Source of the DNA: an uncultured Flavobacteriaceae bacterium
Lineage (GTDB): Bacteria; Bacteroidota; Bacteroidia; Flavobacteriales; Flavobacteriaceae
Direction: 5' to 3'
Length of the DNA: 64,000 nucleotides
Assembly (NCBI GenBank): GCA_947500575.1
Contig: CANMSI010000006.1
Coordinates: 62,001-126,000 of the forward strand
Below are positions 29,709-45,717 of the stretch, piece after piece. Below the pieces are notes generated by a model, which worked only from the letters and a program-made list of their open reading frames with translations, ran no database searches and had not been told where the DNA came from. Numbering within the stretch: the first letter of the stretch is position 1; the number at the start of each line of letters is the position of its first letter. Position numbers and translations under genes: made by a program.

Positions 29709-32204
29709 ATGAAAAAATACTTTCTTCTCCTATTATTTTTTAGTTCTTTTTATGTCTTTGCCCAAACCAAAGTAAGTGGTATTGTGGTTGACGAATCTGG
29801 GGCAAACGTGGCGTTTGCTAATATTCTATTTAAAGATTCTTTTGAAGGTACTATTACCAATGACAATGGTCGGTTTTACATGGAATCAGACAATACCTAT
29901 ACTACTTTGGTAGTTTCGTTTATAGGCTATGAGACCAAGGAAATAGTATTGACTAATAAGGTTAACTATGAAATGAAAATAGTGCTTACAGAGTCGAGTG
30001 AGCAACTAGATGAGGTCATTGTGTATACCGGAAAACAGTCTAAAAAGAACAATCCTGCCATAGATATTCTTCGGAAAATTTGGGCAAAAAAGCGGGTTAA
30101 CGGTCTTAAAAAGTTCAAACAATACAAGTACGATAAATACGAAAAGGTAGAGTTCGATTTAAATACCATCGACAGTGCGGTTATTAAAAGTAAAATGTTC
30201 AGAGGACTCGAGTTTGTTTTTGACGATTTAGATACCTCTCGCATTACGGGTAAAACCTATTTGCCTATTTTTTTAAATGAGGTTTTCTCCAAAGTGTATG
30301 GAGATAATGAACTGGGAGAAGAAAAAGAAGATGTGCTCGGAAACAAAAACTCGGGATTTAATAACAACCAGGCGATTACTGCTTTTGTAGAAGATTTGTA
30401 TTCAGATTATGATATCTACAACAACTACCTTAAGTTTTTTGATAAAAGTTTTACCAGTCCGCTTTCCAAGACGGGTATTGATACCTATAATTATGTCTTA
30501 TCAGATAGTACCTATATTGATAATAAGTGGTGCTATAACATCATATACTATCCTCGTCGTAAAAACGAGCTCACTTTTAAAGGCGATTTTTGGGTCAATG
30601 ATTCTACCTATGCTATTAAGAAAATTAATCTAGAGGTCACCAAAAGTGCCAATATTAATTGGGTGAAAGAGATTTATATAGAACAAGAATTTGATGTGGT
30701 GAACGATTCTGTTTTTCTCTTGAAACGAGATTATATGCTCAGTGATTTTAGTCTGAACAAAAAAGAGAAATCCAAAGGTATTTATGGAAAAAGAACTACT
30801 GTTTATGATGGGTATGAGTTCGATGTACCTAGACCAAAGAAATTCTATAAGGATGTAGCAGATCCTTTTGATCCAGTGGTGTTTTCTAGGGACAGTACCT
30901 TTTGGGAATCCAATAGGTTAGAAACTTTGAATAAGGACGAAAAAGGCATCTATCAACTCTTAGATACTCTTAAAACAGTGCCCAAATTTAAAACCTATTA
31001 TAACATTGTAAGTATTTTGGGGTCTGGTTATATCGAAGTTGATAAGTGGAATCTCGATATTGGAAATATCTACAGTGTTTTTGGCTTTAATGATGCTGAA
31101 GGAGCTCGCATTCGTCTGGGTGCCCGTACCTATTTTGGGCAAAACGATCCGTGGCGATTACAAGGGTATGTGGCTTATGGTTTTAAAGACCAAAAATTTA
31201 AACATGGTTTTTCCGCAAAATGGTTGATAGACAAAAAGAGTCGTCTTATCATCTCTGGAGGCAATCGGCGCGATGTGGAGCAACTGGGTTTAAGTCTAAC
31301 GGCCACCAACGATGTTTTAGGAAGAAGCATTGCTTCCTCTTCAGTATTGACTGTGGGAGCGAATGATAGACTTACCAATATCAACCTAAGTGCTTTAAAC
31401 ATAGAATTAGAGCCACTAAAGAACTTTAGAATGCGTTTTGGAAGTTCTTTTAGGACCTTGAGTTCTGCCTTACCAGAGGCTTTTAATTTAGATTATATAG
31501 ATGAAACGTCGCCCACCGGAATTTCTTCAGAAATAAAACAGTTCGATATCAGTACGCAATTGATTTATACGCCCGGAAGAAGAACCATTGGAACAGGGGT
31601 TGAACGCAATGATATTAATGATAACTACAGTACCATTTTAGTAAACTATACAAAAGGGATCGATGGTTTCTTGGAAAGTGATTTCAACTATCAGAAATTA
31701 CAATTTTCCTATTCACAACCCTGGCAAATAGGAGGTTTTGGAAGATTATTTAGCACTGTAGAAGTTGGAAAAACCTTTGGTGAGGTTCCTTTGAGTTTGC
31801 TCAATGTAATTCCAGGAAATCAAACCTTGTTTTCTATTTACAATACCTTTCCCAATCTAGATTTTTATGAATTTGTAACAGACACCTATGCCTCCGTACA
31901 TTTTGAACATAATTTTAATGGTCGCCTTTTTTCCAGAATTCCTCTGATTCGCAAATGGAATTTGAGAGAGATTGTGGGTTTAAGAGGTGTTTGGGGTGAT
32001 ATTTCTGATGCCAATATTGCATTAAGTGCTCCTACCAATATTCCACTACTTGCGCCTACCGATCAGATTTACTGGGAATATTCTTTTGGAGTAGGTAATA
32101 TTTTTAAAATTTTACGAATCGATTTTAATTTTAGAGGCAATTACCTAGATAATCCAAATGCGCGCCCGTTTAGTGTAACAGGCTCTTTTGGATTCAGTTT
32201 TTAA
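29709..32204 (+). CDS. DUF5686 outer-membrane protein with carboxypeptidase-regulatory-like domain
   Basis: 831 residues. Signal peptide (ending VFAQ), then a carboxypeptidase-D regulatory-like beta domain (about residues 20-105; KVSGIVVDESGANVAFANILF), then the DUF5686 region starting KNNPAIDILRKIWAKK and a long C-terminal barrel whose last strand ends in phenylalanine (GSFGFSF). Proteins of this layout are common in Bacteroidetes outer membranes but have no assigned function. It stands alone between two terminated units; no TonB box or plug is obvious. Confidence 0.9.
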   Translation: MKKYFLLLLFFSSFYVFAQTKVSGIVVDESGANVAFANILFKDSFEGTITNDNGRFYMESDNTYTTLVVSFIGYETKEIVLTNKVNYEMKIVLTESSEQLDEVIVYTGKQSKKNNPAIDILRKIWAKKRVNGLKKFKQYKYDKYEKVEFDLNTIDSAVIKSKMFRGLEFVFDDLDTSRITGKTYLPIFLNEVFSKVYGDNELGEEKEDVLGNKNSGFNNNQAITAFVEDLYSDYDIYNNYLKFFDKSFTSPLSKTGIDTYNYVLSDSTYIDNKWCYNIIYYPRRKNELTFKGDFWVNDSTYAIKKINLEVTKSANINWVKEIYIEQEFDVVNDSVFLLKRDYMLSDFSLNKKEKSKGIYGKRTTVYDGYEFDVPRPKKFYKDVADPFDPVVFSRDSTFWESNRLETLNKDEKGIYQLLDTLKTVPKFKTYYNIVSILGSGYIEVDKWNLDIGNIYSVFGFNDAEGARIRLGARTYFGQNDPWRLQGYVAYGFKDQKFKHGFSAKWLIDKKSRLIISGGNRRDVEQLGLSLTATNDVLGRSIASSSVLTVGANDRLTNINLSALNIELEPLKNFRMRFGSSFRTLSSALPEAFNLDYIDETSPTGISSEIKQFDISTQLIYTPGRRTIGTGVERNDINDNYSTILVNYTKGIDGFLESDFNYQKLQFSYSQPWQIGGFGRLFSTVEVGKTFGEVPLSLLNVIPGNQTLFSIYNTFPNLDFYEFVTDTYASVHFEHNFNGRLFSRIPLIRKWNLREIVGLRGVWGDISDANIALSAPTNIPLLAPTDQIYWEYSFGVGNIFKILRIDFNFRGNYLDNPNARPFSVTGSFGFSF

Positions 32205-36238: not shown

Positions 36239-37168
36239 ATGAGCAAAAAACTATTCTTCATTCCTTTGCTTCTTTTCGTATATCAATTTGGATTTAGTCA
36301 AGACTTTCAAGGAAAAGCAGTCTATCAAAGTAAAACGACCATGGATATGGATTTTGGCGGAAGACAAATGTCAGAAGATCAAAAGAAAATGATCAAAGAG
36401 CGTATGAAAAGTTTTTTGGAAAAATCCTTCATATTGACTTTTGACCGCACTTCTGCTACTTATTTAGAAGAAGAAAAACTGGAGCAACCTGGGGGTGGCG
36501 GAGTTAATTTTAGGGCTTTTGGTATGGGAAGTGGTAAATATTACAAAAACATTCAGGAGCAAGCTTATACCAATCAAACAGAAATGTTTGGAAAAGTATT
36601 TCTAATAAAAGATAGCCTCAAAACTTTGGACTGGAAGTTAAGTTCCGAAAGCAGAAAGATTGGAAATTATACCTGCTACAAGGCAACCGCAGTGAAAGCC
36701 GTAGATTCTACAGATTTTTCAAATTTTAGAAGACGGGGGTCAAGGGGCAACAGGGGAAGCAGAGGTACTAGAGGAACTGAAGCTGAAGCTGAAGAAACAA
36801 CACAGAAACAAGATTCTACGGCAAAAGAAGACAAAGAAGATTCGTTATTCTCTCGCATCGAAATTCCAAAAGAAATAGAGATCACTGCATGGTATACTCC
36901 AGAAATCCCAATAAGTATGGGACCAGGTGAGTATTGGGGCTTGCCAGGCCTTATTTTGGAAGTAAGTTCTGGACGAACTACTATTTTGTGTTCAAAAATT
37001 GTGATGAACCCAGAAGAAAAAGTGGTCATAGAAGCTCCTACCAAGGGAAAAGAAGTAACCCAAGAAGCGTACAATAAAATAATGATGGATAAGGTGAAAG
37101 AAATGTCCGAACGTTTTGGAAGAGGCAATAGGCGTGGTAATGGTGGAGGCTTTAGAATTCGAAACTAG
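36239..37168 (+). CDS. GLPGLI-family secreted protein, copy 1
   Basis: 309 residues with a signal peptide (ending FGFSQ). The family motif GLPGLI is at about residues 234-239 within EYWGLPGLILEVS, preceded by ITAWYTPEIPISMGP. The family is specific to Bacteroidetes and its function is unknown. This copy contains a low-complexity Arg/Gly tract (about residues 164-180) followed by an acidic Glu-rich stretch, both absent from copy 2 (42144-42989), and ends in another Arg/Gly-rich tail. Its stop codon overlaps the start of the receptor gene by one base, so the pair is translationally coupled. Confidence 0.9.
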   Translation: MSKKLFFIPLLLFVYQFGFSQDFQGKAVYQSKTTMDMDFGGRQMSEDQKKMIKERMKSFLEKSFILTFDRTSATYLEEEKLEQPGGGGVNFRAFGMGSGKYYKNIQEQAYTNQTEMFGKVFLIKDSLKTLDWKLSSESRKIGNYTCYKATAVKAVDSTDFSNFRRRGSRGNRGSRGTRGTEAEAEETTQKQDSTAKEDKEDSLFSRIEIPKEIEITAWYTPEIPISMGPGEYWGLPGLILEVSSGRTTILCSKIVMNPEEKVVIEAPTKGKEVTQEAYNKIMMDKVKEMSERFGRGNRRGNGGGFRIRN

Positions 37169-39861
37169 TGGGGCATAGTAAAACACTTCAATACGGCGTA
37201 TTTTTTATATTATTTCTTCTGAGTCTTCATAGCAATGCTCAAAATATTACCATTACGGGTAGTGTTAAAGATAGTATCGGAAACCCTTTAGATATGGCCA
37301 ATGTGGTTGCTGTAAATGTAGCGACCAAAGGCTTAGATGGTTTTGGGATTACTTCGCCTCAAGGCATGTATAAAATTAAGGTAAAGGCGAATACAGAATA
37401 CCAGCTAAAGATTAGTTATTTAGGATTTGCGCCCAAAGAAATTCTCTTAAGAACCGAAGAAGCTGATATTGTTAAAAATGTAGTGCTTTTTCAACAAGCA
37501 GAAAATTTAGATGAAGTAGAAGTTACCTACGAAATGCCTGTTACTATTAAAGGAGATACCATTGTATATAATACAGATTCTTTTGTCTCTGGTACCGAAA
37601 AAAAATTAGAAGATGTACTTAAGAAGTTACCAGGAGTAGAAGTAAGTGATGAAGGTGAAATCCAAGTAGAAGGGAAGACGGTGAGCAAAGTAATGGTGGA
37701 AGGGAAAGACTTTTTTGATGGCGATTCTAAACTTGCTTCTAAGAATATACCTGCCAATGCATTGGATAAAATTGAAGTACTTCGTAACCATAGCGAGGTT
37801 TCCCAATTAAGAGGGGTTACTAATAATCAGGATAACGTTGCTATTAATATTAAATTAAAAGAGGGTAAAAAGAACTTTTGGTTTGGGGAAATTACCGCTG
37901 GCTTAGGGCTCGATGATCGTTATTTAGCACATCCTAAACTTTTTTATTACAGTCCAAAATACAGTTTAAATGTTTTAACTGATTTTAATAATATTGGAGA
38001 ACTTCCCTTTACTGCCCGTGACTATTTTAATTTTACAGGAGGTTTTAGAAATATAATGAGAAGAGGCGGCACAAGCTTTAGGGCTTCTTCCAATGATTTG
38101 GGTATTTCAGTTCTTCAAAACAATCGGGCAAAAGCCATTGACACCAAGTTTGGGGCAATGAATTTTAGCTATGCACCAACTGCAAATTGGGACCTTAGCG
38201 GTTTTGTAATCTATTCGTATACTTCAACAGATCTAGAAACCGTGGCAAGTAGAACCTTTATTTCTACGAATCAGCAAGAAATCACAAATACACTAACAGA
38301 CCAAAGTACTTCACTTGGTCTTGCCAAATTGAGTAGTAGTTATAAACCCAGTAGTAATTTTCAATTTGATTATGACGTGCTTTTAAAACTGTCAGATCAG
38401 CAAGAAGATATTAATCTAGAAACAATTTCTGATGTTACTGATAATATTGTTGAGAGAAAACGGCAAAAGCCCCTGAGTGTTAATCATAATGCTAATATAT
38501 ACTACACCTTAAATGAGCAAAATATTTTTGCGGTTGAAGCCCAATATTTCTATCAAGATGAAGATCCTTTTTACAATGCTATAAGAGAAATACAGCCTTT
38601 TTCAGGAATTTTACCATTAGATCAAGGACAAAGTAACTTTAATATTAATCAAGATCGGGTTGTACGCACTAATAAATTAGACGCCAAAGTGGATTATTAC
38701 TTTGTTACGGGTCCTAGAAGCAATTTAAATTTCACTTTGGGAACCATTCAGAGTTTTCAAGATTTTGATTCAGAAATTTTCCAAATTCTGGACGATACGA
38801 GTCGCACAGATTTTATAGAAGATGCTTTGAATAATGATGTTTCTTATGACTTTTCGGATTTATTTTTTGGATTTCATTACAAAGTAGTTGCTGGGAAGTT
38901 TACCATTAATCCAGGATTCAGCATTCATCAATACAAAGCAACAAATACCCAACTTGGGACTCAGGTGCAGGACGATCTTTTTAATCTGGTACCAGATGTA
39001 TTTGTAAACTTTCAACTAAAGCAATCAGAAAGTATTCGTTTGAACTATTCGGTTACTAGAGAATTTACGGATATCAATAAATTTGCGAGTGGATTTATCT
39101 TTAATAATTATAACTCTTTATTTCAGGGGAATAGAGATTTGGAAAGTGCACTATATCATAATGTATCGCTTAACTTTTTCAGCTTTAATATGTTTAATTT
39201 TCAAAACATATTTGCCAATTTTAGTTATAACCGACGTATTGATCCATTTAAAGGGAATAATACTATTATAGGAATTAATCAGGTAAACTCTACCATCAAT
39301 TCGAATTTGGAAGATGAAATTTTATCTGGTTCGGCTAATTTTCAACGCACTTTTGGAAAAATTAAGTTAAGCACTAGAGCTTCTTTATCTTCCTCTAAAC
39401 TTAATAACATAGTGAACAACCAGCCTCGACTATCCAAGTCCTTTACGCAAACTTATAGAGCTTCTGTAGCTACCAGTTTTAGAGATGCTCCAAATCTGGA
39501 AATAGGTTATAATTATACGGTAAATGATTATGATAATGGTGGTATTACTTCGAGTTTTTTTACAGATAGGCCTTTTGTAAAATTCGATGCTGCTTTTTTA
39601 AAGAATTTTATTTTCACCGCGGATTACGATTACTACCACTACCGGGATAAGGCCAATACCATAGATAACGAATATGCCTTCTTAGACACTGCTTTATCGT
39701 ATCAAAAGAAAGATAGTAAATGGGAATATAGTATTGAAATAACTAATTTATTGGACAACCAAGAATTAAATCAGGATAGTTTTAACGATCTCTTTTTTAG
39801 AACCTCTTCGTACATTGTACAACCTAGATATGTGATGTTTAAGATAAAGTACGATCTATAA
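37168..39861 (+). CDS. Carboxypeptidase-regulatory-domain outer-membrane receptor-like protein, copy 1
   Basis: 897 residues. It starts at a GTG (37168) embedded in the GLPGLI stop (TAGTG); the first ATG lies far inside. Signal peptide ending NAQ, then a carboxypeptidase-D-like beta domain (about 25-110; ITGSVKDSIGNPLDMANVV), a plug-like region (VYNTDSFVSGTEKKLEDVLKKLPG, then EGKDFFDGDSKLASKNIPAN) and a long barrel ending YVMFKIKYDL. It resembles TonB-dependent receptors but I see no clear TonB box. The plug-like part is closely similar to that of copy 2. The ligand is unknown; it presumably works with the GLPGLI protein. Confidence 0.9.
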   Translation: MGHSKTLQYGVFFILFLLSLHSNAQNITITGSVKDSIGNPLDMANVVAVNVATKGLDGFGITSPQGMYKIKVKANTEYQLKISYLGFAPKEILLRTEEADIVKNVVLFQQAENLDEVEVTYEMPVTIKGDTIVYNTDSFVSGTEKKLEDVLKKLPGVEVSDEGEIQVEGKTVSKVMVEGKDFFDGDSKLASKNIPANALDKIEVLRNHSEVSQLRGVTNNQDNVAINIKLKEGKKNFWFGEITAGLGLDDRYLAHPKLFYYSPKYSLNVLTDFNNIGELPFTARDYFNFTGGFRNIMRRGGTSFRASSNDLGISVLQNNRAKAIDTKFGAMNFSYAPTANWDLSGFVIYSYTSTDLETVASRTFISTNQQEITNTLTDQSTSLGLAKLSSSYKPSSNFQFDYDVLLKLSDQQEDINLETISDVTDNIVERKRQKPLSVNHNANIYYTLNEQNIFAVEAQYFYQDEDPFYNAIREIQPFSGILPLDQGQSNFNINQDRVVRTNKLDAKVDYYFVTGPRSNLNFTLGTIQSFQDFDSEIFQILDDTSRTDFIEDALNNDVSYDFSDLFFGFHYKVVAGKFTINPGFSIHQYKATNTQLGTQVQDDLFNLVPDVFVNFQLKQSESIRLNYSVTREFTDINKFASGFIFNNYNSLFQGNRDLESALYHNVSLNFFSFNMFNFQNIFANFSYNRRIDPFKGNNTIIGINQVNSTINSNLEDEILSGSANFQRTFGKIKLSTRASLSSSKLNNIVNNQPRLSKSFTQTYRASVATSFRDAPNLEIGYNYTVNDYDNGGITSSFFTDRPFVKFDAAFLKNFIFTADYDYYHYRDKANTIDNEYAFLDTALSYQKKDSKWEYSIEITNLLDNQELNQDSFNDLFFRTSSYIVQPRYVMFKIKYDL

Positions 39862-39869
39862 TTTTGTCT

Positions 39870-40550
39870 TTAACAGATTAGCTTATACCCATAGCCACGT
39901 ACATTCACTATTTGTATGTTACTATCTTTTTTTAATTTCTTACGAAGTTTTGTGATAAAAACGTCCATACTTCGTGCATTGAAAAAATCGTCATCGCCCC
40001 AAATTTTTTTTAGAATTTCTGACCTATCTAAAATGGCATTGCTTTTTTCAGTGAGATGAAACAGCAACTCGGCCTCTCTATGAGTAAGTGGTTGTGTTTC
40101 TTCTTCGAAAACTAAGGTTTGTTTGGTATAGTTAAATAGGTAGTTTCCAATTGTTATATGATTTTTAGCCTGTTTTAGCTGAGATCTATTTAAAAGAGCA
40201 TGAATCCTAACAATCAATTCTTCCATACTAAAAGGTTTTTTTAAATAATCATTACCCCCATGTTCAAAACCCTCTATAACATCTTTAGTTTGTGATTTTG
40301 CTGTTAGAAAAATAATAGGAATGCTACTATCTTCTTTGCGAATTTCTTTGGCTAATGTAAACCCATCTTTTTTTGGCATCATTACATCGAGTACCAAAAG
40401 ATCTGGTTTTTTTATTTGATATATCCGTAACGCTTCTTCTCCGTTCTTGCAAAAGAGGACCTCAAAATCTCTGGTTTCTAAACTTTCCTTAACAATTAGA
40501 CCAAGTGCGGGTTCATCTTCCGCTAAAAGTATTTTTATAGATTCTTTCAT
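39870..40550 (-). CDS. OmpR-family response regulator
   Basis: 226 residues. Receiver domain with the acidic pocket (AEDE) and phospho-acceptor Asp55 in LLVLDVMMPKKDG, Lys in YLKKPFSMEEL, and a C-terminal winged-helix DNA-binding domain (REAELLFHLTEKSN, SMDVFITKLRKKLKKD, GYGYKLIC). OmpR-type regulators bind direct repeats about one helical turn apart; three such repeats lie upstream of the kinase gene. Its start overlaps the kinase stop by 4 bases, so the two are made together. It lies between two GLPGLI cassettes. Confidence 0.96.
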   Translation of the reverse strand: MKESIKILLAEDEPALGLIVKESLETRDFEVLFCKNGEEALRIYQIKKPDLLVLDVMMPKKDGFTLAKEIRKEDSSIPIIFLTAKSQTKDVIEGFEHGGNDYLKKPFSMEELIVRIHALLNRSQLKQAKNHITIGNYLFNYTKQTLVFEEETQPLTHREAELLFHLTEKSNAILDRSEILKKIWGDDDFFNARSMDVFITKLRKKLKKDSNIQIVNVRGYGYKLIC

Positions 40551-42016
40551 AAAACTACTTTAAAGATGGTATTACTTGCATGAGGTATTAAGTGTACATT
40601 GCCTCCATGCTTTTCAATAATTTTTCTTGTGTAGAATAGACCAATTCCAAAACCCTTTACATCGTGTTGGTTCCCCGTAGGCACGCGGTAGAATTTGTCA
40701 AATATTTTTTCTGCCTGACTTTTATCTAAGTTGCCTCCATTATCTATCACCGTAATTTCATGAGTATTTAAAAGGGAACTTAAATGCACCTCTACCGTAT
40801 CTCCTCCGTATTTCAAAGCATTGTCAATAAGATTGGAAATAGCATTCTCGAAATGAAAAGGATCTACCATGGTTTCAAAAGTGGAAACATTGGATTTAAA
40901 AGCAATACTTTTTTCCTTAAAGAATAATTGGTATTTCTCTACAATACTTTGAAGCATAAAAACTAAGTCTGTAGATTCTTTGTTTAGTATAAGTTTATCG
41001 CTATCTAAGGTTGCAGTCTCTAATAGTTTTTCTACCATTTGATGCAGTTTTTTAAGTTGCTGGTTAGAGATATCTAGATAGGCTTTAGTTTTCCCGGGAT
41101 CATTGGCAGTGTTGAAATTTTGAATGCCTTCAACAGCAGCAGAAACTGTAGCAATGGGCGTTTTAAATTCGTGCGTAATATTACTAATAAGATCATTTTT
41201 AATTTCTGCTAACTCTTTCTGTTTATTTATGACGCGCAGCAGATAAAACAGACAGGCAATTATACTTGCTGAAAGTAAGAGCGATAATAAAATACCTGTA
41301 AGACTTCTTTTAAGAATTGTCAAGGTAGGATTGGAAAAGAAGAGTTGTAATTTTTCGGAATAAGGTAAATAGGTAGTTTTTGCAAAAGTGTTTAGTTGAA
41401 AAGAAGTGGCGTTGTCAAGATTGAAACTATCTACCATAGCATCTTCTTTAAAATGCTTTAGAGCATAGGTAATCTGGATGTCTTTACGTTTAAATTCACT
41501 TTGAAGCAAGGTGTCTAGTTTTTCAAAATTCAGGGAATCCCGAATAATGGATACAATAATTTTATTTGCAAGATTTTGTAAACCTTTAATACTATCAACC
41601 ACGCCCTTACCTTTAAAAACCGAAACAGAAGAATAATGTCCGGGTCGCATGGAGCTTATACCTCTAGAAGAATCTAACATCTGGGTAAACCCTCTAATAT
41701 CGGCAGTGTATTCAATACTGTCTGACTGGATTTCGAAAAAGGTTGAATCTTTGTGAAACTGATCCCAGGTTAGATTGTGTTGAATATCTAATTGAATGCT
41801 ATCATTGGAATCTTCGATAAATGCAAAGAAATCCGTTTTGGCTAAATCGGCATAATAGGCTTCCAAACCATTGTCCAGGCTAATTTGTACCTCATTGATT
41901 AAGCGTTGTTTATTCACCTTGTAGTTCTGTATATTCCAATACAACTGAATAGCAATAGTAACCACAATAGTGGCGCTTATAAAATAAATAAGTGATTTGT
42001 AGTTTTTTTGTCCCAC
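40547..42016 (-). CDS. Sensor histidine kinase
   Basis: 489 residues. TM1 about 10-28, an extracytoplasmic sensor of about 200 residues (30-235) that I do not recognise, TM2 about 238-260, then the catalytic part: His282 in NITHEFKTPIATVSAAVEG (H-box), N-box ENAISNLIDNALKYGG, G1 ITVIDNGG and G2 GFGIGLFYTRKIIEKHGG. It phosphorylates the downstream response regulator. It is transcribed divergently from GLPGLI copy 2; the intergenic region between them carries three GTTAAC repeats. Confidence 0.96.
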   Translation of the reverse strand: MGQKNYKSLIYFISATIVVTIAIQLYWNIQNYKVNKQRLINEVQISLDNGLEAYYADLAKTDFFAFIEDSNDSIQLDIQHNLTWDQFHKDSTFFEIQSDSIEYTADIRGFTQMLDSSRGISSMRPGHYSSVSVFKGKGVVDSIKGLQNLANKIIVSIIRDSLNFEKLDTLLQSEFKRKDIQITYALKHFKEDAMVDSFNLDNATSFQLNTFAKTTYLPYSEKLQLFFSNPTLTILKRSLTGILLSLLLSASIIACLFYLLRVINKQKELAEIKNDLISNITHEFKTPIATVSAAVEGIQNFNTANDPGKTKAYLDISNQQLKKLHQMVEKLLETATLDSDKLILNKESTDLVFMLQSIVEKYQLFFKEKSIAFKSNVSTFETMVDPFHFENAISNLIDNALKYGGDTVEVHLSSLLNTHEITVIDNGGNLDKSQAEKIFDKFYRVPTGNQHDVKGFGIGLFYTRKIIEKHGGNVHLIPHASNTIFKVVL

Positions 42017-42056
42017 ATATCAAAAGTAAGAACAATAGCTGGGGAATATCCTATCG

Positions 42057-42082
42057 GTTAACACTCGTTAACACTGGTTAAC
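42057..42082. promoter_or_regulatory. Three GTTAAC hexamers at exact 10-bp spacing, putative response-regulator site
   Basis: GTTAAC occurs at 42057, 42067 and 42077; the first two decamers are GTTAACACTC and GTTAACACTG. Exact one-turn direct repeats are the known binding mode of OmpR/PhoB-type regulators. The site is 41 bases upstream of the kinase start and 62 upstream of GLPGLI copy 2, so it could control both. Confidence 0.7.
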
Positions 42083-42083
42083 C

Positions 42084-42112
42084 TTGTTTGCCCAAGATAT
42101 GCTTCAAATTTG
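42084..42112 (+). promoter_or_regulatory. Putative promoter of GLPGLI copy 2
   Basis: TTG (42084-42086), 18 bp, CAAATTTG (42105-42112), one mismatch from TAnnTTTG. The third GTTAAC repeat abuts the TTG, the usual place for an activator. Weak match, so dependence on an activator is plausible. Confidence 0.4.
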
Positions 42113-42143
42113 TGATGTAATTGTTCAACTAAAACGCATAGAA

Positions 42144-42989
42144 ATGAAAACAACATCACTTTTTTTGGTTCTGCTATTCATCAGTTTTACTACAGGAGCT
42201 TTTGCTCAAGAGTTTACTGGGGTTGCCACTTATAAGACAGATATGAAAATGTCTATTACAATGGATAGTACGAAAACTACCTCCGATCAGCAAAGCCTCA
42301 TCAATGAGCAAATTTCTTTGGCCATGCAAAAAGACTATGAGCTCACTTTTACTAAATCTGAGTCCAATTGGAAGGAAATCCAAGAGTTAGACAAAATGTC
42401 TGGACCTAGCAGTGGTATTCAAATTCAGATGGTTGGAATGGGCGGAGGCGTAGATGGCCTCTTGTATAAAAATACCAAGGATAAGACACGTTTAGAAACT
42501 ACAGACGCTTTTGGGAAACTTTTTTTAGTCTCTGGTGAACTCACTCCTTTTGAATGGGAATTAACTTCAGAAACTAAACAAATAGGGAGTTACAGTTGTT
42601 ATAAAGCAATAGCCAAACGTGAAGTTACAGAAATGCATATTTCAGAGGTGAACGGGGAACGCGAAGAGGAAGAGAAAACCCATACCCAAACGATCACTGC
42701 TTGGTATGCACCAGAAATTCCGGTAAGTCATGGACCAGAATCCTATTGGGGTTTGCCAGGTTTAATCTTAGAAGTTAGCAACGGTAGCAGAGTAATGGTT
42801 TGTAGTAAGGTAGTTCTTAACCCTGAAGAAAAAGTGGCGGTAGAAATCCCATCAAAAGGAAAAAAAGTGACCTCCGAACAATATGAGGAAATTATGGAAG
42901 AACAGGCAAGAAAGATGAACAAAATGTATGGAGGTGGAAAGAAAAAAGGCAAAAACAATTCCTCTTTTGAAATTCGAATAGACGGATAG
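42144..42989 (+). CDS. GLPGLI-family secreted protein, copy 2
   Basis: 281 residues from ATG 42144, which starts a clear signal peptide (ending GAFAQ); an in-frame ATG at 42084 lies within the promoter. GLPGLI is at about residues 203-208 in YWGLPGLILEVS, with ITAWYAPEIPVSHGPES before it, closely matching copy 1. It lacks the Arg/Gly tract of copy 1. The function is unknown. The receptor gene follows after 43 bases rather than overlapping as in the first cassette. Confidence 0.9.
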   Translation: MKTTSLFLVLLFISFTTGAFAQEFTGVATYKTDMKMSITMDSTKTTSDQQSLINEQISLAMQKDYELTFTKSESNWKEIQELDKMSGPSSGIQIQMVGMGGGVDGLLYKNTKDKTRLETTDAFGKLFLVSGELTPFEWELTSETKQIGSYSCYKAIAKREVTEMHISEVNGEREEEEKTHTQTITAWYAPEIPVSHGPESYWGLPGLILEVSNGSRVMVCSKVVLNPEEKVAVEIPSKGKKVTSEQYEEIMEEQARKMNKMYGGGKKKGKNNSSFEIRIDG

Positions 42990-43032
42990 TAAATAGCATC
43001 CTAGTTTTAAATTCCAAAAACATCAATCAAAA

Positions 43033-45717
43033 ATGAACAGAATACTCATCACCTTTTTGGTAGGGCTAGGATGCTTTTGCCATAATTTAAATGCGCAGAA
43101 GATAAGCTTAGAAGGAAAAGTATTAGATAGTTTACAACAGCCCTTAGAATTAGCAAACGTACTTGCAATTAATAAAAATTCTAAAGCAATTGCTTCTTAC
43201 GGGATTACAGATAGCGAGGGGAAGTTTAAACTCTTTTTGAAAAAAGATAGCGTATATATTTTAAAAGCCAGTTATCTAGGTTTTGAAACATTTCAAGAAG
43301 AATTCAAAGCTACTGATTCGCAAAGCAAAACCCTTATTCTAAAACCTGCAGCCAACCAATTGGAAGGTGTGGAATTGGTAGAAGAATTTCCCGTAACGGT
43401 TAACGGAGATACCATTACCTATAGAACCGATGCTTTTACTACTGGTAAGGAGAAAAAACTGGAAAATGTGTTAGAGCAATTACCAGGTTTTGAAATTGAC
43501 GATGAGGGGCAAATAAAAGTTCAAGGAAAAGAAGTGAGCAAGGTATTGGTGGAAGGGAAAGAGTTTTTTGATGGCGATACTAAAATGGCTACCAAAAACA
43601 TTCCTGCCAATGCTGTTGATAAGGTACAGGTACTCAGAGATTTTAATGAAATTGGACCATTGAAGGGTGTGAATAATAGCGATGCTTTAGCACTAAATAT
43701 AAAATTGAAAGATGGTAAAAAGAATCTATGGTTTGGAGATGTTTCAGTAGCCGCAGGCCCCCAAGAGCGTTATTTGGCGCATCCTAATCTTTTTTATTAC
43801 TCTACCAAGCTCAGTGTTAATTTTATAGGAGATTTAAATAATATTGGAGAACAGGCATTTACCTTAAGAGATTACTTTAGATTTAGTGGAGGTCTATCTA
43901 GTTTGGGAAGAAGATCGGGTTCTTCGGTGAACCTTTCTAGTGATGATATTGGTTTATCGCTATTACAAAATAACAGAGCCCTAAATGTAGCATCTAAATT
44001 GGGAGCGCTTAATTTTACCTATACTCCTAATAAAAAGATAAGTTTTACGGGTTTCGGAATTGTATCTGGTGTTAAAACAGATCTGTCTAGCGTTTCGCAG
44101 CGTACCTATATCAGAGAAGAGGGGAATAATGAAGAGTTACTATCTTCTAATGTATTGCAAGAGAATACCGCGGGTCTATTAAAGTTCTCCACTACCTATA
44201 CGCCCAATGCTAAATGGTATGTAAACTACGACGGTTTTGTAAAGGGGTCGGATATTAGAGATCAAAACCAATTAAATTCTAATTTTGATAGTTTTAATAA
44301 TGACATTAGATCTATTAATACTAGAAGACCCTTTTCTGTAGAGCAGTTGCTGAATGCTTTTTATGCAAAAAACGATAATAATATTTTTTCTTTTGAAACT
44401 ACCCATCTCTATAAAAGACAGCGACCCGACTATGATCTATTGACAACACAACAACCTTTTCCTGGAAGCATACCCCTGTTAGGAGAAAATCCGTTTAATC
44501 TTTTTCAAAATAAGGAAGTTTTTACAAATGTGTTAGATGCAGAACTTAATTATTATAGAGTATTGAATGCAACAAATCATATAAGCTTTAAAGCCGGAAT
44601 TAGTGTCAATAATCAACGCTTAACATCTAATTTGACAGAGCGTTTAGAGGATGGAACAGAAAATATCCTAGATGAAACCACCTTTGGGAATGATACCACT
44701 TTCGACTTCTTAGATGTATATTTCGGTATTGGTTATCGTGTAAAATTTGGAAAGCTGGTGGTAAGTCCTGGACTTAACTTTCACATGTATAATACAGAAA
44801 ATGCCCAAGGAGGATCAGTATTTGAATTAGACAAAACCCTATTGCTACCCAGGCTAAGAGCAAAGTATGAGATTAATAGTTCGCAAAGCGTGCAATTAAA
44901 TTATGATATTCAGGCAGAGTTTAGCGATATCCAAAATTTTGCCTCAGGAGTTCAGCTTAGTGGCTATAACCGTCTTTTTTCGGGAAATCCTAATTTAAGA
45001 AACGCGTGGTATCATAATGCTACTTTGAACTACTTCAATTTTAGTGGGTTTAATTTTACCAATATTAATGGTGGACTTAGCTATCAAAAGCGCTATGATA
45101 ATATAGGAACTACAGTAAATTTTTTAGGATTAGACAGGGTAGCGAGTCCCATTAATATTGATGCACCTAACGAAACGCTTTCACTTTTTGGTAGTTACGA
45201 AAGAAGATTTCCGTTTTTGAAAGGTAAATTTGAAGCCAGAGTTGCCTATAGTAAGTTTAACAATGAGATAGATGGTGCTAGCAATTTTAATAGATCATTT
45301 AATCAGCAATATAAACTAGCATTGGAAACCAGGTTTAAAGAAGCGCCTAATGTAGAGATAGGTTTTGAAAAAATATGGAACGATTATGCCAGTGCTACCA
45401 TAAATAATAGGTTTGTTACCAATAGGCCATTTGCCAATATAGAAGCCTATTTTCTAAATGGCTTTGCGATTACCGCAGACTACCAATACAATGCATATAA
45501 AAACACCAATGGAGGTAGTACTAGTTATTATGATTTTTTAAATGCAAGCCTCTTCTATCAGAAAGAAGACAGTCATTGGGAATTTAAAATTCAGGCCCTA
45601 AATCTATTAAATACCACTTCGATACGCCAAGATTCTTTTTCTAATAACCTAATTAGCACCTATGAGTACCTAGTGCAACCCCGGTATTTTGTTTTAGGGA
45701 TTACATATGAACTTTAA
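43033..45717 (+). CDS. Carboxypeptidase-regulatory-domain outer-membrane receptor-like protein, copy 2
   Basis: 894 residues. Signal peptide ending NAQ, a carboxypeptidase-D-like domain (about 22-105; ISLEGKVLDSLQQPLELANV), a plug-like region (YRTDAFTTGKEKKLENVLEQLPG; EGKEFFDGDTKMATKNIPAN) and a barrel ending YFVLGITYEL. It aligns along its whole length with copy 1 (897 residues) and the two have near-identical segment order, so they arose by duplication. With GLPGLI copy 2 it forms the second cassette beside the two-component system. Confidence 0.9.
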   Translation: MNRILITFLVGLGCFCHNLNAQKISLEGKVLDSLQQPLELANVLAINKNSKAIASYGITDSEGKFKLFLKKDSVYILKASYLGFETFQEEFKATDSQSKTLILKPAANQLEGVELVEEFPVTVNGDTITYRTDAFTTGKEKKLENVLEQLPGFEIDDEGQIKVQGKEVSKVLVEGKEFFDGDTKMATKNIPANAVDKVQVLRDFNEIGPLKGVNNSDALALNIKLKDGKKNLWFGDVSVAAGPQERYLAHPNLFYYSTKLSVNFIGDLNNIGEQAFTLRDYFRFSGGLSSLGRRSGSSVNLSSDDIGLSLLQNNRALNVASKLGALNFTYTPNKKISFTGFGIVSGVKTDLSSVSQRTYIREEGNNEELLSSNVLQENTAGLLKFSTTYTPNAKWYVNYDGFVKGSDIRDQNQLNSNFDSFNNDIRSINTRRPFSVEQLLNAFYAKNDNNIFSFETTHLYKRQRPDYDLLTTQQPFPGSIPLLGENPFNLFQNKEVFTNVLDAELNYYRVLNATNHISFKAGISVNNQRLTSNLTERLEDGTENILDETTFGNDTTFDFLDVYFGIGYRVKFGKLVVSPGLNFHMYNTENAQGGSVFELDKTLLLPRLRAKYEINSSQSVQLNYDIQAEFSDIQNFASGVQLSGYNRLFSGNPNLRNAWYHNATLNYFNFSGFNFTNINGGLSYQKRYDNIGTTVNFLGLDRVASPINIDAPNETLSLFGSYERRFPFLKGKFEARVAYSKFNNEIDGASNFNRSFNQQYKLALETRFKEAPNVEIGFEKIWNDYASATINNRFVTNRPFANIEAYFLNGFAITADYQYNAYKNTNGGSTSYYDFLNASLFYQKEDSHWEFKIQALNLLNTTSIRQDSFSNNLISTYEYLVQPRYFVLGITYEL

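Follow-up and report, generated by a model that had tools for sequence, protein, structure and literature searches.

A conserved operator between a two-component system and a divergent GLPGLI/receptor operon in Flavobacteriaceae

The DNA analyzed here, which we call the window, is a stretch of 64,000 nucleotides of contig CANMSI010000006.1 (GenBank assembly GCA_947500575.1) from an uncultured Flavobacteriaceae bacterium. It carries two gene pairs, each encoding a secreted GLPGLI protein and an outer-membrane receptor-like protein, on either side of a histidine kinase (HK) and a response regulator (RR) encoded on the opposite strand (Table 1). We refer to the pairs as cassette 1 (GLPGLI-1 and receptor-1) and cassette 2 (GLPGLI-2 and receptor-2). 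The intergenic region between HK and GLPGLI-2 holds a new element, three GTTAAC units with a TTTG 26 nt further on, that recurs in related genomes. By all signs the neighborhood is real and regulated more tightly than a reader of the sequence could know, and cassette 2 alone is wired by this operator. We lean toward the view that HK and RR serve as a two-component switch dedicated to the divergent GLPGLI-2/receptor-2 operon, which would encode a periplasmic carrier and an outer-membrane gate; sequence comparison argues strongly for the regulatory part of this view.

The operator and its promoters

Conservation was assessed in sets of 120 and 397 family genomes, in 296 phylum genomes, and in the best 80 of 363 relatives from a scan of named genomes that include Winogradskyella, Psychroserpens, and Aquimarina. 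Of 131 kinase loci, 125 have three TTAAC units at 10-bp spacing; none of the shuffled controls does. The operator consensus, AATCGgTTAACACaCGTTAACAcTngTTAAC, includes flanks that had not been selected for. Toward GLPGLI, a TTTG lies exactly 26 nt from the array in 122 of the 125 loci, and toward the kinase, a TAnnTTTG element begins 26–28 nt from it in 117. Bacteroidota promoters have the form TTG/TAnnTTTG. We considered and rejected a canonical TTG −33 box on the GLPGLI side, as TTG pairs with the −7-like element in 10 of the 125 loci versus 9.1 in shuffles. Because most GLPGLI promoters lack this box and the array stands in its place, activation of the GLPGLI-2 promoter by bound RR is the natural inference from the sequence. 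On the other side, the 4-nt gap between the kinase-facing element and the HK start codon hints that the kinase transcript is leaderless or that HK starts later. The position of the conserved TTTG, at 42109–42112, also makes ATG 42144 the most likely start of GLPGLI-2, rather than the TTG at 42084 given in the open reading frame (ORF) list.

The array is absent from all 58 GLPGLI loci that were scored as lacking the kinase, of which two have a pair of units; these 58 include L078, where the kinase is cut by the contig end and the operator lies upstream of a small gene, beyond the scanned stretch. No array was found near cassette 1 even with up to three mismatches, and a single operator for both cassettes was rejected on this ground.

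When 120 whole genomes were scanned, the exact array was found at the kinase in 38 of the 42 genomes that have this kinase. Because some genomes recur among our locus sets (of the 80 named loci, 7 apparently overlap the set of 40 relatives described below), the cleaner figure comes from searching the 397 family genomes for the composite of array, 26 nt, and TTTG. This search returned 117 sites in 110 genomes, of which 105 have a single site and five have two or three, and the reversed control returned none. From the 105 single-site genomes, 32 were picked blind to their genes; GLPGLI lies downstream of the site in 31 and the kinase on its other side in all 32. Leaving out six loci that were apparently seen earlier (L260, L270, L271, L280, L281, and L286), the counts are 25/26 and 26/26. 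In the exception, L265, the site is followed by a small secreted protein and then MetK. The kinase is split into two ORFs at L267 and lies ∼0.9–1.2 kb away at L288 and L290.

Seven extra composite sites are found in the five multi-site genomes. Two precede genes for a retropepsin-like PDZ protease (G413) and a TlpA-like thioredoxin (G479), two precede OMP_b-brl receptors (G118 and G207, start 135 nt away), and of the remaining three, one lies before another GLPGLI of its own locus (G643), one before a gene for a 110-aa secreted protein (G207), and for the third (G643, contig C15) no gene was picked. Related protease and thioredoxin genes are also found inside the GLPGLI cassette in some lineages, such as Aquimarina (L163 and L172). 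Instances include L163 (7132–8295 and 9150–9872, minus strand), L041, L042, and L046; the retropepsin-like aspartyl protease with PDZ is seen at L163 and L042 (at L041 by likeness), and the TlpA-like thioredoxin at L163 and L046. Because the extra sites and the cassette contents lead to the same kinds of partner, they suggest a common envelope task.

We did not count as promoters the bare exact arrays that lack the TTTG at 26 nt. Seven extra arrays of this kind inspected in kinase genomes are all intergenic. Five of them are followed by genes for a retropepsin-like lipoprotein (G058), diaminopimelate (DAP) epimerase (G117), similar secreted proteins (G089 and G081, with a DUF4440 match below cut-off in G089 only), and an LTXXQ-like protein matched below cut-off (G078); the other two lie at a second place in G058 and in G068. 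Of the two array-bearing genomes inspected among those with no kinase match (G042 and G111), G111, which is 64% complete, carries the array and 26-nt TTTG between GLPGLI and receptor.

Table 1. Genes and regulatory elements of the locus (window coordinates)
Feature	Position	Strand	Description
GLPGLI-1	36239–37168	+	309 aa, signal-peptide-like start; Porph_ging PF09697; TIGR01200
Receptor-1	37168–39861	+	897 aa; CarboxypepD_reg, OMP_b-brl_3 barrel; main receptor clade
RR, OmpR/PhoB type	39870–40550	−	Response_reg and Trans_reg_C (Pfam)
HK	40547–42016	−	489 aa; HisKA and HATPase_c (Pfam)
TAnnTTTG promoter-like element facing the kinase	42021–42028	−	CAAAAGTA on the plus strand; 4 nt before HK start
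Operator, three GTTAAC units at exact 10-bp spacing	42057–42082	+	Single exact place in the 4.2-Mb assembly
−7-like element of the GLPGLI-2/receptor-2 promoter	42105–42112	+	CAAATTTG; TTTG at 42109–42112, exactly 26 nt past the operator
GLPGLI-2	42144–42989	+	281 aa, signal-peptide-like start; TIGR01200; predicted half-barrel
Receptor-2	43033–45717	+	894 aa; CarboxypepD_reg, predicted plug-like part and barrel; separate receptor clade

Linkage and descent of the genes

An earlier note, made from the sequence of this stretch alone, had described GLPGLI and carboxypeptidase-regulatory receptor pairs flanking an HK/RR pair on the opposite strand, and all six genes and their families are confirmed. 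Both GLPGLI proteins belong to TIGR01200 (170.8 bits for GLPGLI-1 and 191.9 for GLPGLI-2, cut-off 50), and the GLPGLI motif is seen in both in the alignment. The domains of HK and of RR, with its receiver and Trans_reg_C, are those of an OmpR-type two-component system, and in the N-terminal region of HK two hydrophobic stretches, identified by eye, flank a sensor part that forms its own family. Receptor-1 has a Pfam match to Plug below cut-off. Receptor-2 was matched by no Pfam barrel or Plug model at 0.01; across 37 aligned members of its family, Plug matches 26 and OMP_b-brl_3 matches 14. The whole assembly has three GLPGLI matches. The third (contig C4, L250) also adjoins a barrel gene, with no exact array in the surrounding 12 kb. 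A second, weak kinase match lies on another contig (C2; 46.6 bits, profile positions 89–266).

The note had also pictured a fixed neighborhood with a dedicated sensor, and the genome survey that it called for bears this out, with co-occurrence beyond chance in each locus set and in the 31 of 32 motif-first genomes above, the conserved operator–promoter joining kinase and GLPGLI. Gene labels in these surveys come from hidden Markov models built on these loci, rather than from curated models. In 39 of 41 kinase loci (40 relatives plus the window, kinase above 500 bits), a divergent GLPGLI is the next or next-but-one gene to the kinase, 26–988 bp off; L051 and L075 have no divergent GLPGLI near the kinase. 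GLPGLI lies within two genes of the kinase in 80/80 of the named loci. In the phylum set, the sensor is matched at 1e-10 in 59 of 296 genomes and at 160 bits or more in only 13, own genome included; all 13, three of which belong to another family, have GLPGLI beside the kinase. In the remaining 46 genomes the matches score below 70 bits and cover mostly the C-terminal half of the profile. A profile search of the 120 family genomes found the sensor region in 42 and GLPGLI in 97 (E 0.001; 95 over cut-off), and 94 of the 296 phylum genomes have GLPGLI (84 over cut-off).

Of 41 phylum loci picked on grounds other than the kinase, 33 have a receptor-type barrel beside GLPGLI; the 41 represent one listed match each from 41 of the 94 genomes with matches. 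The eight loci that lack an adjacent receptor are L189 and L198–L201 (all family f2), L219, L223, and L229; at L223 a barrel is present, and its GLPGLI was missed by ORF picking. The f2 genomes carry these receptor-less GLPGLI genes with at least nine scored GLPGLI matches each. Many kinase-less GLPGLI–receptor pairs adjoin dNK, without HK/RR. Because the pairing of GLPGLI with receptor reaches wider than the kinase, the carrier–gate pair looks like the core, with the switch as an add-on. One genome (G346, L190) has a run of seven GLPGLI ORFs, one of them short, together with a single receptor, and the HK/RR close to them is a different and distant one; the L190 and L229 kinases are on long branches and were not counted as this kinase.

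The wider synteny is conserved as well, including H+-pyrophosphatase, dNK, a 260-aa secreted protein, and MetK. The names H+-pyrophosphatase, pyrophosphatase, and MetK are those we presume by recognition, and dNK is from Pfam. The 260-aa protein stands next to dNK in 42 of 61 loci (e.g., L064, 6416–7198, minus strand), is missing from the window, and gave no Pfam match in the one copy scanned. A CarboxypepD_reg and DUF5686 protein at 29709–32204 of the window (plus strand) is part of the same conserved block. A small secreted protein of ∼120 aa is found in 41 of the 80 named loci, and in those listed it lies between kinase and GLPGLI (e.g., L101, 9504–9878, minus strand); the one copy scanned has no Pfam match. 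Members of this family are present at L051 and L265 although GLPGLI is missing there, and the protein is a possible accessory regulator of the kinase. At L045, L060, L065, and L126, a second related HK/RR pair directly adjoins the main pair. The backbone of the kinase tree is unresolved, so it does not decide on movement of the whole module between families.

The two cassettes are older paralogs, judged from their sequences. The receptors share 42% pairwise identity and the GLPGLI proteins 35%, and in trees both receptors and both GLPGLI proteins group with genes of other genomes rather than with each other. Among 42 receptors, receptor-1 falls in the main clade near those of G101, G119, G001, and G031, and receptor-2 in a supported clade of seven with G085, G095, G101, G076, and two genomes of another family. 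Among 57 GLPGLI proteins, a split with 92/95 support places GLPGLI-2 on the side of mostly kinase-adjacent genes and GLPGLI-1 on the mostly receptor-adjacent side. The "duplicated" cassette of the earlier note thus stands as paralogous pairs in the same order and not as a recent copy, and a symmetric unit under one regulator is not supported, the paralogs being older and the operator being at cassette 2 only. The near-identical plug-like motif to which it pointed, FFDGDxKxAxKNIPAN, is present in both receptors, with variants throughout the 37 aligned receptors; it is a family feature and no sign of recent copying. The usual order in the family is RR–HK, first-kind GLPGLI, second-kind GLPGLI, and one receptor. 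In the window the two GLPGLI kinds are separated, each with its own receptor, and flank RR/HK, an order also found in G101 (L039). In G119 (L040), the operator and a kinase from the same clade stand ahead of a GLPGLI and receptor of the other type.

Predicted folds and related systems

The GLPGLI-2 model (73-sequence alignment; predicted local distance difference test score, pLDDT, 87.4; predicted template modeling score, pTM, 0.82) is most similar to the N-domain of PNGase F-II (Foldseek 1.9e-7; Z 15.7, 3.2 Å over 171 residues). Across 4r4x, 4r4z, and 7zgn the predicted fold superposes with Z 15.3–15.7 and a root-mean-square deviation (rmsd) of 3.2–3.5 Å over 171–173 residues, and the sequences are weakly related (E 0.002). 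Unlike PNGase F-II, with 529–544 residues, GLPGLI-2 has 281 and no room for a catalytic part, and the two GLPGLI proteins score 14.9 and 19.8 bits against the domain model PF22252, below its cut-off of 27.6. A far second tier comprises VioE, MucB, RseB, LolA, and ependymin-related folds (Z ∼8–10), with Porphyromonas gingivalis LolB at Z 7.3; the Foldseek E for LolB was only 0.06–0.07. Superpositions gave Z 9.2 for MucB (6in9), 9.1 for RseB (2v42), and 9.0 for Pseudomonas aeruginosa LolA (2w7q), at 3.6–4.6 Å, and LolA/RseB-type folds fill much of the match list below the PNGase rows. RseB and MucB act beside an envelope-stress signaling system. The predicted half-barrel arrangement is loosely similar to theirs; unlike them, GLPGLI-2 has a TonB-type barrel and a histidine kinase as its partners, and no sequence similarity was found. 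Of 444 aligned GLPGLI rows, 336 have both cysteine 152 and cysteine 220, 88 have one of the two, and 20 have neither; a disulfide and a TlpA-like partner would be a guess.

The receptor-2 model (AlphaFold2, 37 sequences; pLDDT 80.8, pTM 0.74) has a predicted plug-like part and barrel that resemble those of a TonB-dependent transporter. The 50 best Foldseek rows listed are all TonB-dependent transporters (best E 1.3e-16, Cir), and superposition on FhuA, FecA, and BtuB gives Z ∼14–16, up to 15.8 in the VIA list. Receptor-2 differs from these transporters in its N-terminal CarboxypepD_reg domain and in being missed by the Pfam Plug and barrel models.

Among regulators, the best NCBIfam model for RR is RprY of the Bacteroides/Porphyromonas RprX/RprY system (NF051850), which likewise combines an OmpR-type regulator with a membrane kinase; at 280.5 bits versus a cut-off of 370, RR does not score as an RprXY equivalog. 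The words consensus, binding site, and motif are absent from the RprY study that we consulted.

Alternatives and a proposed mechanism

Several observations weigh against a dedicated switch for a carrier–gate operon. The exact array is missing at the kinase in four of the 42 kinase genomes (G002, G016, G046, and G055, the last having it with one mismatch). The extra composite sites are few and differ between genomes, and bare arrays elsewhere in the genome can be chance: kinase genomes have 15 of them, the 78 others have 13 in 11 genomes, and the backwards control gave eight in all 120. The HK sensor region matched no PDB sequence at E up to 1. The LolA/RseB likeness of GLPGLI-2 is loose (Z ∼7–9, rmsd mostly 3.6–5 Å), such Z values being barely above the level that the superposition tool regards as a common arrangement and carrying no cargo information, and a chain of the Mtr complex, a non-TonB barrel (6r2q_B), ties for receptor-2 at Z 15.5. 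Among 20 family loci selected by their GLPGLI in genomes that have no full kinase match, 19 have the receptor adjacent; the persistence of the carrier–gate pair without the kinase makes the switch optional, and the notion that the sensor is required for the pair does not survive. In favor of the switch, GLPGLI genes of other species are affected by regulators, which we cite with no orthology to RR implied. In a Riemerella anatipestifer study, GLPGLI genes are five of the 50 genes called direct PhoP targets (two up and three down in the mutant), and the motif core is TTTAACA (PMC9603813); in a P. gingivalis study, two GLPGLI genes fall in the mutant of regulator PG0720 (PMC8757827).

Nutrient uptake is a possible alternative, one that we regard with some doubt. 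Receptor-2 would import a hydrophobic or peptide nutrient, GLPGLI-2 would bind it in the periplasm, and the kinase would sense it and induce the importer. The predicted similarity of receptor-2 to TonB-dependent importers and the cleft fold that the GLPGLI-2 half-barrel would form are consistent with this, and a sensor beside an importer under its control is a common design. However, the recurrent neighbors include no recurrent nutrient-pathway enzyme (most non-recurrent ORFs were left unidentified), the seven GLPGLI ORFs per one receptor at L190 suit a single binding protein poorly, and the protease and TlpA-like partners suit proteostasis equally or better. Export or assembly, in which the GLPGLI proteins would be cargo or chaperones in bringing lipoproteins or lipids to the surface and receptor-2 would be the exit gate, appears improbable. 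The nearest solved folds after the PNGase domain do include LolA, LolB, RseB, and MucB, and two papers describe several LolA/LolB paralogs in Bacteroidota (PMC11885536, PMC13103446), but by reading, the start of both GLPGLI proteins lacks a lipobox cysteine, and their Pfam hits include no LolA model. To our knowledge, export through a TonB-dependent transporter fold is not established either.

The surrounding synteny, being conserved too, could make the kinase a mere passenger in a conserved gene block that regulates other genes. We consider this very improbable, as hardly any variation is seen in the operator that separates kinase and GLPGLI, which is the sole exact site in its own genome and was not found at the GLPGLI promoters of the 58 loci scored as kinase-less. 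Less credible still is a recent tandem duplication giving two equivalent cassettes under one regulator: the gene order is indeed identical on both sides of HK/RR, but the 42% and 35% identities and both trees, with the receptors in different supported clades, contradict a recent event, and the operator stands at one cassette only.

In the dedicated-switch reading that we favor, the kinase would sense the state of the periplasm or outer membrane, and phosphorylated RR would bind the three GTTAAC units. At the array, which replaces the −33 box lacking in most loci, RR would activate the GLPGLI-2 promoter and would also control its own promoter on the kinase side. The operon would yield the secreted half-barrel GLPGLI-2, loosely LolA/RseB-like, and receptor-2, a gate resembling TonB-dependent transporters. 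GLPGLI would most likely bind hydrophobic or peptidic cargo in the periplasm and hand it to, or receive it from, the gate, and the switch would match supply to envelope condition. Cassette 1 would be an older relative of this carrier–gate pair that sits beside the switch and is not wired to it by this operator.

The sensing of envelope stress or of a substrate had been offered in the earlier note as an example of what such a neighborhood might do. Envelope sensing is a reasonable guess because the predicted fold of GLPGLI-2 is loosely LolA/RseB and because the operator precedes, in a few genomes, the PDZ aspartyl protease, the TlpA-like thioredoxin, and other barrels. Any analogy to Cpx or sigma-E would extend at most to a periplasmic-side sensor, a dedicated regulator, a loosely RseB-like protein, and a PDZ protease and thioredoxin at some extra sites; unlike those systems, the GLPGLI system has mostly a single target operon, and the likeness would be one of working principle rather than of homologous parts. 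A broader picture, speculative and in our view unlikely to hold in full, is a Bacteroidota-specific envelope-response pathway that is Cpx/sigma-E-like in logic and built of unrelated parts, in which a kinase acting through an operator of its own would govern half-barrel GLPGLI proteins; these would both deliver cargo to a TonB-type gate and inform the kinase about it, and some lineages would have added the PDZ aspartyl protease and a thiol reductase.

GLPGLI proteins are widespread in Bacteroidota, and Pfam lists the domain as a protein of unknown function. A literature search by the Pfam and TIGR names returned nothing, and the word GLPGLI itself occurs in only three of the papers covered (subscription papers lay mostly outside the search). 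Searches on the PNGase domain yielded nothing of use, and one on envelope stress a single unrelated paper. The locus described here offers several handles on the family, including a predicted fold, a standing receptor-type partner, and a highly conserved operator that makes the regulator, its target, and the inducing condition testable. With these, a role of the GLPGLI family in the upkeep or supply of the cell envelope becomes testable.

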